38,582 nucleotides of DNA. It comes from an uncultured Alphaproteobacteria bacterium. Lineage in GTDB: Bacteria > Pseudomonadota > Alphaproteobacteria > HIMB59 > GCA-002718135. Each line of letters starts with the position of its first letter. Within the stretch, counting starts at the first letter, position 1. The translations under genes were made by a program, and so were the position numbers. The stretch is from the NCBI GenBank assembly GCA_902605135.1, contig CACLBK010000001.1:1-38582 (forward strand). The letters run 5' to 3'. Shown one piece after another: positions 18,030 to 22,713 of the stretch. Under the pieces are notes generated by a model, which saw only the letters and a program-made list of their open reading frames with translations, did not search any database and had not been told where the DNA came from.

Positions 18030-19796
18030 TTAACGTGAGGTGAGTTTTAATTCAATCCTTCTATTTTGCTGCAGATCACTCTCAGTTTCTCCATCACTGA
18101 TAGGATAAAACTCTCCATATCCTGCCGATGCTAATCTATTTGGAGGAAAACCAATATCAAGAAGAAGTTTTAGAACAGTATTAGCTCTAGCTGAAGATAG
18201 TTCCCAGTTAGATGGATATCTTATTGTCTGTATAGGTCTTTTGTCAGTGTGTCCTTCTACCATTATAATCCAGTCAATATCAGATGGGATATCATTAGTA
18301 GTCTCTTTTAAAGTAAGACCAATTTCACTTAATTTTTCTTTACCAGATAGTTGTAAATCTGCTGAAGCAGAATCAAATAGTAGCTCTGATTCAAAAATAA
18401 ATCTATCTCCTACAATTTTAATGTCTTTTCTATCACCTAAAATAGATTGTAATTTTCCAAAAAACTCAGATCTATATTTTTGGAGTTCAAATACTTTAGA
18501 TGTAAGGGCTTTATTTAGTTTTTCACCAAGTACTTCAATTTCTAAATCCTTAATTAAAGCCTGACTTTCACTCGCTTCTAGAGCACTATTAAGTAAAGCT
18601 ATTTCCTTTTGTAAAGTATCAATTTGATTAGAAAGAATTTCCACCTGTTCTAATGTTTTTGAAGCCTGTATTTCCATTTTTTCAATTTCTTCAAGTGATG
18701 TTTCTTTTTGTGCTTGATTCCCTTCTTCTAATGAAACAATTTGATTTTGTAGCAGTTCAAGTTTTTCAAGTTGCTGTTTTTGTTTTTCTTCAGACAAAGA
18801 AAGTATATTATTTAATTCAGAAATTTTTCCACGAAGATTGAAAATAGTGTTATCTTTCTGAAGTAAGTCTTTATTTAATCTTGCTAATTCTTCATTTTTA
18901 AATCTAATTGCATCAAGTTGCTCTTTAAGTGATGCATCTTTTAGGCCAAGACTATCGTTAATTTCTAAAAGATCATTCATTAATTGTTGGTATTGAGATA
19001 TTTGATTTTGTAATTCTTCATCTCTTAAAGATAATTCAATATTTGTTTTCTCTAACTCCTTATTTAAACTTAGTAGTTCCTCATTTTTGTTTTTAATTGC
19101 TAACAATTGATCTTCAATTCCTCCACCCTCTAGGCCCAAACTTTTGTTAATTGCTATTAAATTATCATTCTTTTCATTTAATTCTTCAATTATAGCTTTT
19201 AGGGATTTCTCACTTTCTATTAGTTTTAAATTAGCATTGTCTAATTCTTGATTAAGTATTTTAAGCTGATCAATTCTTGTTGCTAGAGCCTTATTAATCC
19301 TTTCTCCTAAACCTTCAGTTTTGAGTAAAGCAATTTCTTGTCCTTCGTATGTTTCTAGTGCATTTGCAACTATTCTTAATTCTTTTAAAAGAATGCTAAT
19401 TTGCTCTGATAAGGCAATAATATTTTGCTCTTGAACAAATATTTCTGATCTTTTTTTTGCAACTTCTGTTTGTAATTGTTGACTTAATAATTGCTCACTT
19501 TGTAAATTTAATTGTGTATCTTCAAGTATTTTCTCCGTTTCTGAGAGAGTTAAGAGAGCTTCCTTTTTGTCTTGAGTTTCAATAACTAATATTTTTGATA
19601 GTTGATTAATTTGTGCTCTTAAATCTTGAAGTGCCTTATCCCTTCCAGATATAGCATCACTTAAGTATATTTGTGAAACCGTAAAAACCATTAAGACAAA
19701 GATAATTACAATTAGTAAAGTTGCTAAAACATCTACAAACCCTGGCCAAATATTTGTTGTATCAGCAAGTCTATTTCTTAAAGACCTAGTAGACAT
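18030..19796 (-). CDS. MotB/OmpA-like peptidoglycan-binding protein with long coiled coil
   Basis: A 588-residue protein with three parts. Residues about 20-42 form one membrane helix starting GFVDVLATLLIVIIFVLMVF, where Asp22 matches the proton-binding Asp of MotB/ExbD/TolR. Residues about 47-450 are a long coiled coil containing internal repeats: 214-251 matches 277-314, and 163-180 matches 423-440. Residues about 465-588 are an OmpA/MotB domain with the peptidoglycan-binding block VEGHTDKRPI, then NWELSSARANTVLKLLL and QQNRRIELKL. It is probably the stator-type partner of the MotA/TolQ-like protein two bases upstream. No flagellar genes are nearby, so a motility role is not implied. Confidence 0.88.
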   Translation of the reverse strand: MSTRSLRNRLADTTNIWPGFVDVLATLLIVIIFVLMVFTVSQIYLSDAISGRDKALQDLRAQINQLSKILVIETQDKKEALLTLSETEKILEDTQLNLQSEQLLSQQLQTEVAKKRSEIFVQEQNIIALSEQISILLKELRIVANALETYEGQEIALLKTEGLGERINKALATRIDQLKILNQELDNANLKLIESEKSLKAIIEELNEKNDNLIAINKSLGLEGGGIEDQLLAIKNKNEELLSLNKELEKTNIELSLRDEELQNQISQYQQLMNDLLEINDSLGLKDASLKEQLDAIRFKNEELARLNKDLLQKDNTIFNLRGKISELNNILSLSEEKQKQQLEKLELLQNQIVSLEEGNQAQKETSLEEIEKMEIQASKTLEQVEILSNQIDTLQKEIALLNSALEASESQALIKDLEIEVLGEKLNKALTSKVFELQKYRSEFFGKLQSILGDRKDIKIVGDRFIFESELLFDSASADLQLSGKEKLSEIGLTLKETTNDIPSDIDWIIMVEGHTDKRPIQTIRYPSNWELSSARANTVLKLLLDIGFPPNRLASAGYGEFYPISDGETESDLQQNRRIELKLTSR

Positions 19797-19798
19797 TA

Positions 19799-20824
19799 TT
19801 ATTTTTTAATTTTCTTTAATTCTTTTTCAATATTCTGAAAATACTCTTTGACTTTTTTTGTTTCTAATATTCCATTTTTACTTAAAGCTTCTGTTAAGTT
19901 CATAAGTGAAGACTGCGTATTTAACTGAGAAGATAGGAAGTTTGAAAGTTGTTTATCAAGATTGGATGAGTTTGAATTTATTTTATTAAGTATTTCATTA
20001 AATTTATCTAAATTGTTTGAAATTTTCGTTTGATTATCAGATGATTTTTTAAAAGCATTCAAAAGATTTTCTAAGTTATCATAAATTTTTTGAATTGCTT
20101 CAGCTGTTGGTTTATCTTCAACTTTAGAGAAATCTGGTGAGGAATTAGAGTTAAGTATTTTCTCAAAGTATTGACTAAATTTATTTTGAGCTTGACCAAG
20201 ATTTAGATCAAGTAATCCTAATATTAAAGAGCCTGCTAAACCCAACAATGAACTGCTAAATGCAATACTCATTCCTTCTAGTGGAGCATTTAAACCATCT
20301 TTTAGAGAATTAAAAAAACCGGCAACATTTGTATCATCTATACCTAAACCACTAATAACATTACCGACAGATCCAATAGTTTTAAGAAGTCCCCAGAAAG
20401 TTCCAAGGAGTCCTAAAAAAACTAGTAATCCAACTAGGTAGCGTGAAGTTTCTCTTACACTCACTAAAGTCATGTCTGAGTTTTCTATTAATCTATTTAT
20501 TGATGAGCTTTTAAAAGAAAATTTTCCATCTAAATTTTTTAATTCAAGAGAAATATTTTTATCTTGTCCTCTTAAATTTGAAAATGCTTCTACAGAATTG
20601 GTAATATTGAAGTTGGAATAAGAAATATATTTATAATTTAGATTAATCAGATGGAAAAAATTAAATACAATTCCGATTCCTAAAGCTAATAAAATTATTA
20701 TATTAATGAAAATATTTGATAGAAAAGCATTTTGTAAAACAGGATATAATAAAACAACAATAACGAAAACAGCAATTAAAAATACTGAAGCTCTAATTAT
20801 GTAATTGTTTAGCGATTGTGCCAT
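19799..20824 (-). CDS. MotA/TolQ/ExbB-like proton channel subunit
   Basis: A 341-residue protein with four probable membrane segments: two near the N-terminus (about 10-30 and 35-55) and two in the conserved core. The core holds GLLVFLGLLGTFWGLLKTIG near 132-151 and a second helix after the PLEGMSIAFSSSLLGLAGSL block. The C-terminal 100 residues are a polar coiled coil. This layout matches alphaproteobacterial MotA/TolQ/ExbB relatives that sit beside OmpA-domain partners. Together the two should form a proton-driven complex anchored to the cell wall. The general plan resembles ZorA/ZorB, but no Zorya effector genes are present. Confidence 0.87.
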   Translation of the reverse strand: MAQSLNNYIIRASVFLIAVFVIVVLLYPVLQNAFLSNIFINIIILLALGIGIVFNFFHLINLNYKYISYSNFNITNSVEAFSNLRGQDKNISLELKNLDGKFSFKSSSINRLIENSDMTLVSVRETSRYLVGLLVFLGLLGTFWGLLKTIGSVGNVISGLGIDDTNVAGFFNSLKDGLNAPLEGMSIAFSSSLLGLAGSLILGLLDLNLGQAQNKFSQYFEKILNSNSSPDFSKVEDKPTAEAIQKIYDNLENLLNAFKKSSDNQTKISNNLDKFNEILNKINSNSSNLDKQLSNFLSSQLNTQSSLMNLTEALSKNGILETKKVKEYFQNIEKELKKIKK

Positions 20825-20874: not shown

Positions 20875-22059
20875 TTAATTGTAGATATAATTTCTTGTTA
20901 GAGGCAAATTGTTAATATCCTTTGCTATTTGTATTTGAAAAACAACATTACCCATATTTACAAAAGAATACTTACTTGCCAAAAGATAAAACTCCCACAT
21001 TCTAAAGAAACGTTGATCAAACATCTTTATAATTTTGTCTTTATTTTTAATAACATTTTGATACCATTTAGAAAGTGTATGAGCATAATGTAGTCTTAGC
21101 ACTTCAACGTCAGTAACATTTATATTAAGTTTTTGTGTTTCGTTCATTACTTCAGATAAAGATGGAATATAACCACCAGGAAAAATATATTTTCTAATCC
21201 AAGGGCTAGTAGCAGTTGGTTTACTTCTTTGACCAATTGTATGCAAAAGAAAAACTCCATTCTCTTTCAAAATATCATTAGCTTTACTTAAATAAGTTTT
21301 AAAATATTTAACACCAACATGCTCAAACATTCCAACTGATACTATGCGATCATATTTTTCATTCTCATTTCTATAATCTTGTATTGCAAAAGAAACTTTA
21401 TCACTCAAACCCTCTTTTTGTGCTCTTTCAGACGCAGTTTTAAATTGATTTTCTGAAAGTGTGATACCTTTAACTTTGGCTCCAGTAGATTTAGCTATTT
21501 CAATTGCCATTCCACCCCAACCACATCCAATATCAAGAACATCCATATTTTCTGTAATTTGAAGTTTTTTAATTATATGTTGTTTTTTATCTTTCTGTGC
21601 TTGGTCTAAACTAATATTTGGGTTATGAAAATAAGCACAAGAATATTGCATGTCTTGATCAAGAAATAATTTATATAAATCTTCATTTAAGTCGTAGTGA
21701 TGAGCAACATTTTTTTTGGAATTTACCAGTTGGTTAATTTGCTGAAAAGGCATAAAAATTGAAGATAAAAATTCATAAAATTTATAAAATTTATTATTTG
21801 AAATAAAATCGTCGTAACAATTAGTTATTAAATTAATAAAGTCTTCTATAGTCCCTTTTTCAACTACTAACTCCTCATTCATATATGCTTCACCTATATG
21901 AAGATTGGGGTTTAAGAATAGCTTTCTCTCAATAGATTTATTTTTTAATCTAACACAAATGTGTGGATTTGAACTTCCAAATTTATAAATTTTATCATTA
22001 GAATCTATAATTTCTAATGTTCCCTCAAAATTTAACTTTTTCAGTACACTGAAGAGCAT
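20875..22059 (-). CDS. cfa: Cyclopropane-fatty-acyl-phospholipid synthase
   Basis: A 394-residue SAM-dependent enzyme that adds a methylene across the double bond of membrane lipid acyl chains. Landmarks are the block DQDMQYSCAYFHNP, the SAM-binding loop VLDIGCGWGGMAIEIAK, SVGMFEHVGVKYF with the acidic and His residues near the active site, and the family-typical IFPGGYIPS. Length matches E. coli Cfa (382). It is followed after 50 bases by the MotA-like gene and preceded by the GcrA-like gene 87 bases away, all in the same direction. Cyclopropane lipids are normally a stress or stationary-phase change. Confidence 0.94.
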   Translation of the reverse strand: MLFSVLKKLNFEGTLEIIDSNDKIYKFGSSNPHICVRLKNKSIERKLFLNPNLHIGEAYMNEELVVEKGTIEDFINLITNCYDDFISNNKFYKFYEFLSSIFMPFQQINQLVNSKKNVAHHYDLNEDLYKLFLDQDMQYSCAYFHNPNISLDQAQKDKKQHIIKKLQITENMDVLDIGCGWGGMAIEIAKSTGAKVKGITLSENQFKTASERAQKEGLSDKVSFAIQDYRNENEKYDRIVSVGMFEHVGVKYFKTYLSKANDILKENGVFLLHTIGQRSKPTATSPWIRKYIFPGGYIPSLSEVMNETQKLNINVTDVEVLRLHYAHTLSKWYQNVIKNKDKIIKMFDQRFFRMWEFYLLASKYSFVNMGNVVFQIQIAKDINNLPLTRNYIYN

Positions 22060-22146
22060 AATTTTATTATTTTAAGAAAATCATTACTTATGTCAATAAC
22101 TCTAAATTATTAACATTTATTTGGTAAATAATTTGTTCTGGTAAAC

Positions 22147-22371
22147 TTAAGCTGCAATACGACGATTTTTTTGAGCTTCTTTTTCTTTTTTAAGCTCTTT
22201 CTCGTCAATGTAGGCGACATCACAGTGATTCTGACAGTATGGCTTACCAGCAACTGTGCTAGCTTCACAGAAATGGAAGTCTTTTTCCTGAGGATCACCG
22301 ATTGGCCATTGGCAACTCGAAAAACTGTGCATCACACTGTTTTGTTTAAAATAATTTTTTAAAATAGACAT
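22147..22371 (-). CDS. Short GcrA-family protein (C-terminal domain only)
   Basis: A 74-residue protein whose residues 20-54 carry the GcrA C-terminal signature: CQWPIGDP, then FHFCEA, then PYCQNHCDVAY. The Cys/His set (Cys20, Cys35, Cys46, His49, Cys50) suggests metal binding. Caulobacter GcrA is about 170 residues, with an N-terminal DNA-binding domain and a C-terminal domain that binds sigma-70. Here the N-terminal part is absent, and I see no frame-shifted remnant in the 159 bases upstream. The tail is Lys/Glu-rich. The start could also be the ATG at residue 14. It might tune sigma-70 without reading DNA, which is inference. Confidence 0.8.
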   Translation of the reverse strand: MSILKNYFKQNSVMHSFSSCQWPIGDPQEKDFHFCEASTVAGKPYCQNHCDVAYIDEKELKKEKEAQKNRRIAA

Positions 22372-22530
22372 ATTTTTTTTATATTATTAATATCGAGCTA
22401 GTTTATATTTATCAAAAGACTAGTATTCAATATTAAATTTTTAAAAGTTGTTAATTATCAATATCTTAGTACTCTAATCTTTCTAACCTACTATATATTG
22501 ATGCCAAACTTCTCAAAAAAACGAATCGGT

Positions 22531-22713
22531 TTATCTAAAAAATAAAATTGCAAATAATAATACCAAAAAAAATAAATAGGATTTTATTGTAAAGCTTTTT
22601 GTAAGTTTTGATTTAGGCGGTTTCCTTAAAAATATAAAGAAAACAATAGTACTCCAAAATATTAGCAGAATTGCCCAGCCTGTTATAAATGCATAAAAGA
22701 AATCAACAGACAT
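22531..22713 (-). CDS. Small two-helix membrane protein
   Basis: A 60-residue frame with two hydrophobic segments (about 6-28 and 44-59) separated by a basic loop (Arg-Lys-Pro-Pro-Lys-Ser-Lys). It begins 19 bases after the msrA stop on the same strand, so it could be cotranscribed with it. The positive loop fits a cytoplasmic hairpin turn. No family recognised. The clean two-helix topology supports a real gene, but no Shine-Dalgarno is seen. Confidence 0.55.
   Translation of the reverse strand: MSVDFFYAFITGWAILLIFWSTIVFFIFLRKPPKSKLTKSFTIKSYLFFLVLLFAILFFR

Follow-up and report, generated by a model that had tools for sequence, protein, structure and literature searches.

GcrA is a reader of methylated DNA tethered to a ligand of sigma-70, and its DNA-binding half directs activation to methylated promoters. 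The protein is laid out as a DNA-binding domain (residues 1-45), an unstructured linker (46-107) and a sigma-interacting domain (SID; 108-173), as described in PMC7403470. On sigma, GcrA, RbpA and Crl all use domain 2 as their docking site (PMC7403470, PMC6917491). The three proteins make overlapping contacts with sigma, strengthen the sigma/polymerase interaction and stimulate open complexes (PMC7403470); Crl acts without contacting DNA (PMC6917491). GcrA duplicates exist: Caulobacter has a GcrA paralogue, GcrB (CCNA_01269), a blastx match 44% identical to GcrA, which partly compensates for loss of gcrA when expressed from a plasmid (PMC3885167), and phiCbK-like Caulobacter phages carry GcrA homologues that could reset host GcrA-dependent transcription (PMC3556154). 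No description of a GcrA consisting of the SID only was found in a partial search of the literature by titles and abstracts, and the literature search returned no paper treating GcrA and HIMB59 together. By a term search, the main text of the paper on the AEGEAN-169/HIMB59 clade (PMC10308909) does not mention GcrA, CcrM or sigma.

The locus considered here lies in a 38,582-nucleotide stretch of DNA from an uncultured alphaproteobacterium of this group, which was analysed as a whole and is called the window. On its minus strand, positions 22147-22371 encode a 74-residue protein with an ATG start, recognized by its open reading frame, its match to the Pfam GcrA model (PF07750) and the presence of homologous loci. 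The match (49.5 bits against a cut-off of 26.9, E 8e-13) is confined to profile positions 109-152 of 155, and positions 1-108, which cover the DNA-binding domain and linker, have no counterpart. The NCBIfam GcrA equivalog NF050816 gives 45.9 bits, below its 280-bit cut-off. Among solved chains, those matched by sequence are GcrA chains 5yix_B (E 3e-8) and 7ye1_G (E 1e-7), followed by two more with E of at least 0.24. Like Caulobacter crescentus GcrA (5yix, 7ye1, 7ye2), the short protein carries the SID signature C-x-W-P-x-G-x-P ... F-x-F-C ... P-Y-C-x2-H-x3-A-Y, and 15 columns are invariant when the SID of the window is aligned with six other GcrA SIDs. The domain spans residues from about 20 to 54 and holds the invariant residues C20, C35, C46 and H49, a set that would suit a zinc site. 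Unlike Caulobacter GcrA, the protein lacks both the N-terminal methyl-DNA-binding domain and the linker, has a conserved 19-residue arm of its own (residues 1-19) and a very conserved, clade-specific C-terminal segment that is predicted to be helical and ends in IAA (residues 55-74), and coexists with a full GcrA in one genome.

The reading of the initial annotation, that the frame encodes a GcrA C-terminal domain deprived of its DNA-binding part, is thus confirmed, and the short form proves to be conserved among homologues of equal length. Exactly 74 residues are encoded at 71 of 71 loci, taken from 71 genomes of the same genus, and again at 80 of 80 loci of a second, named collection drawn largely from the same genomes. 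A full-length gcrA broken by a sequencing frameshift, the case that would have undone this reading, is ruled out, because all 71 loci hold the same 74-residue frame and the DNA upstream is a conserved non-coding promoter region. The open stretch in this frame extends over just 78 residues. The gene is therefore a real one for a free-standing SID.

The predicted structure agrees with this assignment for the core of the protein. An AlphaFold2 model has a mean pLDDT of 74.9, with values near 90 in the blocks covering residues 21-50; this model was built on an alignment of 50 rows, 36 of which are GcrA-like SIDs from viral contigs, and the mean falls to 45.8 when 25 short forms are used alone. A helix is modelled at residues 57-73 with lower confidence, the block means over residues 51-74 being 75, 68 and 56. 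In a Foldseek search, the top three matches are the three GcrA entries (E 0.004-0.017), the next has E 2.7, and no structural match reaches E 0.001 or below. The SID core superposes on 5yix_B with an rmsd of 0.8 over 37 aligned columns at 46% identity (Foldseek); VIA gives an rmsd of 1.6 over 39 residues and a Z of 3.9, which is small as the domain is small. The core is thus predicted to fold like the solved GcrA SIDs. Crl and RbpA do not appear among the solved chains matched by sequence or among the structural matches listed.

Within the family, the short SIDs form a lineage apart from the full-length proteins. In a tree of SIDs, the 13 short rows make one group (support 100/98), as do the 18 full GcrAs of the family (99/99) and the six rows of the sister family (96/100), and the short group falls outside the group of the family's own full GcrAs. 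The tree has only 56 columns, with some rows duplicating one genome and long branches flagged by the program, and it fixes no sister group for the short clade. The short SIDs retain the common CQWPIGDP...FHFC signature, from which the full GcrAs of this family have diverged to CEWPxGHP.

With the short protein as query against 151 genomes (counts by family made by hand from the match table), the 74-residue form turns up in 71 of the 91 genomes of the genus, always with at least 81% identity, and in no genome among the 52 of the sister family. One sister-family match (G131) falls in an 83-residue frame, which is the last part of a full gcrA (C2:195744-196163) broken by three in-frame stops. In the genus, the 20 negative genomes look like cases of missing assembly, because 19 of them also lack the syntenic orthologue of cfa, the gene downstream (they have distant paralogues or none), and in the twentieth (G017) cfa starts 74 bp from the end of a contig of 7,556 bases. 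None of the 20 shows an assembled locus without the short gene, so in these genomes a truly patchy presence within the genus finds no support. Eleven more genus genomes (G152-G162) were seen in an order-wide search only, and five of them (G153, G155, G156, G157 and G160) list one match, of full length; the assembly explanation concerns the 20 genomes. Five of eight genomes searched from the family's other genera have the short form as well. It was not found in G151, G163 and G167, of which G151 (g11) and G163 (g12) also lack a cfa orthologue, and the assembly of G167 (g13) is 67% complete.

Farther afield, 237 of 386 genomes in a class-wide alphaproteobacterial sample are matched, and no frame shorter than 112 residues is present outside the order among the matches listed. 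Of 28 class-wide GcrA homologues that were fetched, 27 show all or part of the helix-turn-helix, and the remaining one (L195) was printed only downstream of it. The PF07750 model also scores above its cut-off in a control genome, that of the archaeon Sulfolobus acidocaldarius. A phage origin was considered and rejected: a search of viral contigs with the short protein gives no relative of the short form, and phage records give 23 partial matches, all below 60% identity. The homologues of phiCbK-like phages resemble the short protein in being extra GcrA-family proteins (PMC3556154) but differ in being phage-borne, and they are about 49% identical to it over 35 residues. A scan of viral contigs with the SID only finds 57 loci, 25 of which have a helix-turn-helix recognized by a regular expression, while several others have diverged N-termini in long frames. 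Two frames in prophage-like contigs, of 105 (L292) and 100 residues (L301), are SID-like without a recognizable DNA-binding part. They could be other free-standing SIDs or sequence errors, and SID-only frames may occur sporadically in such contigs.

The short gene is under strong purifying selection. Between two groups of loci (24 and 17, together the 41 of 71 that have long flanks, assigned according to their identity to the window protein and not by a tree), its pN/pS is 0.124, the lowest of eight genes, against 0.229-0.460 for seven neighbours, each counted in the loci that hold it. Inside the first group the value is 0.061, against 0.115-0.349 for the neighbours. All 55 distinct short proteins keep the C-C-C-H pattern and all 55 end in IAA, an end found in none of the 18 full GcrAs of the family. 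The conservation is uneven along the protein: in the 54 short proteins of length 74, the mean fraction of the major residue is 0.969 over residues 55-74, 0.920 over the SID and 0.890 over residues 1-19. That the C-terminal tail is more conserved than the SID itself is a new finding here. The IAA end resembles C-terminal degradation signals of the ClpXP type and is a putative signal of this kind.

The initial annotation had also offered that the protein might be a leftover in a streamlined genome without CcrM, and had proposed a search of the genome for CcrM and a long GcrA. Both are present. The source genome (1,156,384 bases in 63 contigs, 68% complete) encodes a second, full-length GcrA-family protein in a 157-residue frame on contig 34, and a CcrM, a 356-residue methylase with N6_N4_Mtase (PF01555) and RAMA (PF18755) domains whose best solved relative is Caulobacter CcrMI (6pbd, E 1e-126, residues 5-351). 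PF01555, which is not specific for CcrM, was found in 89 of 101 relatives searched. The sigma-70 of the genome has domain 2 and the non-conserved region, and 384 of its residues form a stretch that can be aligned over its whole length with the sigma chain in the GcrA transcription complex 7ye1. With GcrA, CcrM and sigma-70 all encoded, the notion of a leftover without CcrM falls, as it does on the selection seen in the short gene. The full-length gcrA adjoins a phosphoglycerate-kinase-like gene at three loci from both families, as judged by eye from the translations, and no GANTC is present in the 200 nt upstream of full gcrA in the family loci read. The ccrM of the source genome (L003, upstream of 1435) is preceded by three GANTC sites, all of them within 66 nt.

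Upstream of the short gene lies a rigidly spaced region comprising a CcrM-type site, two boxes and a sigma-70-type promoter, a new observation here. The promoter, putative and read from sequence, spans 22402-22430 on the minus strand, with TTGAAT at -35 (22425-22430), a 17-nt spacer and TATAAA at -10 (22402-22407). The pattern TTGAnn-17-TATA(A/C) recurs in 70 of 71 loci; a generic scan for promoter consensus omits the site, which fails the rules of the scan. Farther upstream, at 22459-22496 on the minus strand, is an operator-like pair of TAGTA/TACTA boxes, ATATAGTA (22489-22496) and TACTAAGATATTG (22459-22471), the latter 28 nt upstream of the -35 element. Across the loci, ATnTAGTA is followed by TACTAAnATATTG at a distance of 17 nt in 68 of 71 cases and 18 nt in two, and the second box is separated from the -35 element by 28 nt in 68 and 27 nt in two, with one locus unscored for each distance. 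Five loci of other genera share the layout with changes of a few bases. Between groups, identity is 66-71% from -160 to -45, compared with 45% for the 90 nt downstream, and the leader of the short gene is not conserved (0.11, gap-rich). An RNA leader in place of a promoter was rejected, there being no Rfam match and a consensus fold of -0.78 kcal/mol with no compensatory pair. A CtrA-type site, seen by eye in only some sequences, was dropped. The exact two-box pattern is unique in the source genome, and a wider regulon was not supported, since the second box with two mismatches gives seven matches against 16 for a backward control.

The methylation site is CGATTCG at 22522-22528 on the minus strand. 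It fits YGAKTCK, the extended GcrA motif proposed for Caulobacter in PMC7987155. The same source describes presence of a motif alone as a poor proxy and its conservation as a better one (PMC7987155). Here conservation is complete: every one of the 71 loci has CGATTCG within the 230 nt preceding the short gene, as have 79 of 79 adequately flanked loci of the named collection (largely the same genomes) and five loci of other genera. In a sliding scan of the 71 loci, 64-nt stretches around the short gene hold GANTC in a mean of 10.6% of loci; only the stretch at -200 does so in all 71, the runner-up being near -1280 with 60. In the window as a whole, which comes from a genome with CcrM, GANTC is rarer than expected, with 65 sites against 117 in shuffles. 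With respect to the upstream gene the place of CGATTCG is not fixed and ranges from within the end of the coding sequence to immediately beyond the stop codon. Between CGATTCG and the first box there are 24-25 nt in 53 loci and 34-36 nt in 18. The two spacings differ by about one helical turn, which points to factors that would bind on one face of the DNA. The distance from CGATTCG to the inferred transcription start is 129-130 nt in 53 loci and 139-141 nt in 17. GcrA targets in Caulobacter were defined within -40 to +40 of the start site, and in Brevundimonas no preference beyond GANTC is described except a slight one for a preceding C (PMC7987155). Since the site lies some 130-140 nt upstream of the start, beyond the Caulobacter target window, control of the short gene by GcrA through CGATTCG is put forward as a hypothesis; CGATTCG may instead be used by a different factor or in the control of a different step.

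The gene order around the locus, 60-residue protein, short gene, cfa, MotA-like and OmpA-like genes on one strand, holds as far as the loci reach in 49 loci with longer flanks, a few genomes contributing more than one, and in three loci from other genera, a count that excludes 30 short-flank loci. The 60-residue protein (22531-22713, minus strand), with its stop beside CGATTCG, is a predicted membrane protein, a name read from the sequence, and has no Pfam match; its gene is kept in the long-flank loci and evolves fast (pN/pS 0.46 between groups). At one locus (L058), msrA and a Nudix gene are inverted upstream. The cyclopropane-fatty-acid-synthase-like gene cfa (20875-22059, minus strand) is the next gene downstream in the examined loci whose contigs reach it, and beyond it a 341-residue MotA-like protein, also named from its sequence (no Pfam match at E 0.001), and a 588-residue OmpA-domain protein are kept as a pair (18030-20824 of the window, minus strand). 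Between the short gene and cfa is a promoter-like site, TTGACA-16-TAAAAT (22069-22096), both hexamers of which recur by eye in five of seven printed spacers; a hairpin with a T-run is seen, also by eye, in three printed spacers of the second group. As cfa has a promoter-like site of its own and the spacer a hairpin with a T-run, the short gene is probably transcribed as a unit of its own.

The short protein resembles GcrB in being a second GcrA-family protein beside GcrA and differs in lacking the DNA-binding half, a lack not reported for GcrB in the part of PMC3885167 consulted. As first proposed for this protein, modulation of sigma-70 and antagonism of full GcrA appear to be the leading readings, and the one we favour, at about even confidence, is that it would be a ligand of sigma-70 domain 2 derived from the GcrA SID that competes with GcrA or tunes it. 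The SID core with its C-C-C-H pattern would dock on the patch of sigma-70 used by GcrA, so that a holoenzyme would carry either GcrA or the short protein. Containing the SID only, the latter should occupy the place of GcrA without bringing a reader of methylated DNA, and it would thereby lower or reshape GcrA/CcrM-dependent transcription; the conserved C-terminal helix possibly adds an effect of its own on open-complex formation. The invariant extended GANTC site and the two conserved boxes suggest that production of the short protein is probably coupled, as a feedback, to the CcrM/GcrA cycle. From the SID match, the predicted fold, the invariant columns, the partners present in the same genome, the lowest pN/pS, the separate group in the tree, CGATTCG in 71 of 71 loci and the fixed spacing, we infer sigma binding, competition and control by methylation. 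Other observations argue against this reading. The SID signature is likewise present in the full GcrA of these genomes, and nothing favours either protein as the better binder. The strict C-terminal tail is not explained by simple competition, no structural match reaches E 0.001, CGATTCG is far upstream, and Brevundimonas shows little preference for the extended motif according to PMC7987155. A more specific form, in which an SID-only feedback partner is timed by methylation through an invariant CcrM site whose helical phase is fixed, competes with GcrA for sigma-70 and is removed via its invariant IAA end as a ClpXP-type signal, is rather unlikely as a whole.

The tail also bears on an alternative that we regard as possible though doubtful, namely that the protein would be a methylation-blind activator of sigma-70 like Crl or RbpA, docking on domain 2, contacting core polymerase or DNA through the C-terminal helix, and stimulating promoters broadly with no meaningful competition with GcrA. 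Docking of a small protein on domain 2 is a possible working mode by analogy with these factors, given that RbpA, Crl and GcrA overlap on sigma and stimulate open complexes (PMC7403470) and that Crl needs no DNA contact (PMC6917491), and the most conserved part of the short protein is precisely the tail predicted to be helical. However, the model of this tail is of middling to low confidence, and activation by an SID alone has no support here, the DNA-binding half being what directs activation to methylated promoters in GcrA. It is unlikely, though the position of the gene directly upstream of cfa in the examined loci that reach it would fit, that the SID-like domain has been repurposed for another partner or for a local role with cfa, in lipid modification or envelope stress, rather than as a global sigma-70 factor. 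The two genomes of other genera that lack a cfa orthologue and also lack the short gene point the same way, but a promoter-like site for cfa itself lies between the two genes, a distant cfa is present without the short gene at four sister-family loci, and retention of all the signature residues suggests that the ancestral partner has been kept. That the gene is a decaying leftover of a former GcrA is very improbable: the DNA-binding domain seen in 27 of 28 class-wide homologues is indeed missing, and the five further genus genomes show a full-length GcrA only, but the data on selection and retention contradict decay, with the lowest pN/pS in the neighbourhood, 74 residues at every one of the 71 loci, a conserved promoter, and no assembled locus lacking the gene among the 20 negative genomes. 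The short gene probably encodes a dedicated partner or competitor of GcrA, not a relic.

If the more specific, methylation-timed form held, an abundant marine lineage would have a built-in limiter of its DNA-methylation-dependent transcription programme. A sigma ligand encoded alone beside a complete GcrA and CcrM is a natural experiment on the sigma-binding half by itself, and its outcome would be one of two: methylation-dependent transcription has an intrinsic limiter, or the same docking site is used independently of methylation. The small gene encodes a single domain, and direct control by CcrM/GcrA is a candidate mode of regulation for its promoter, in an ocean lineage known mostly from uncultured genomes.
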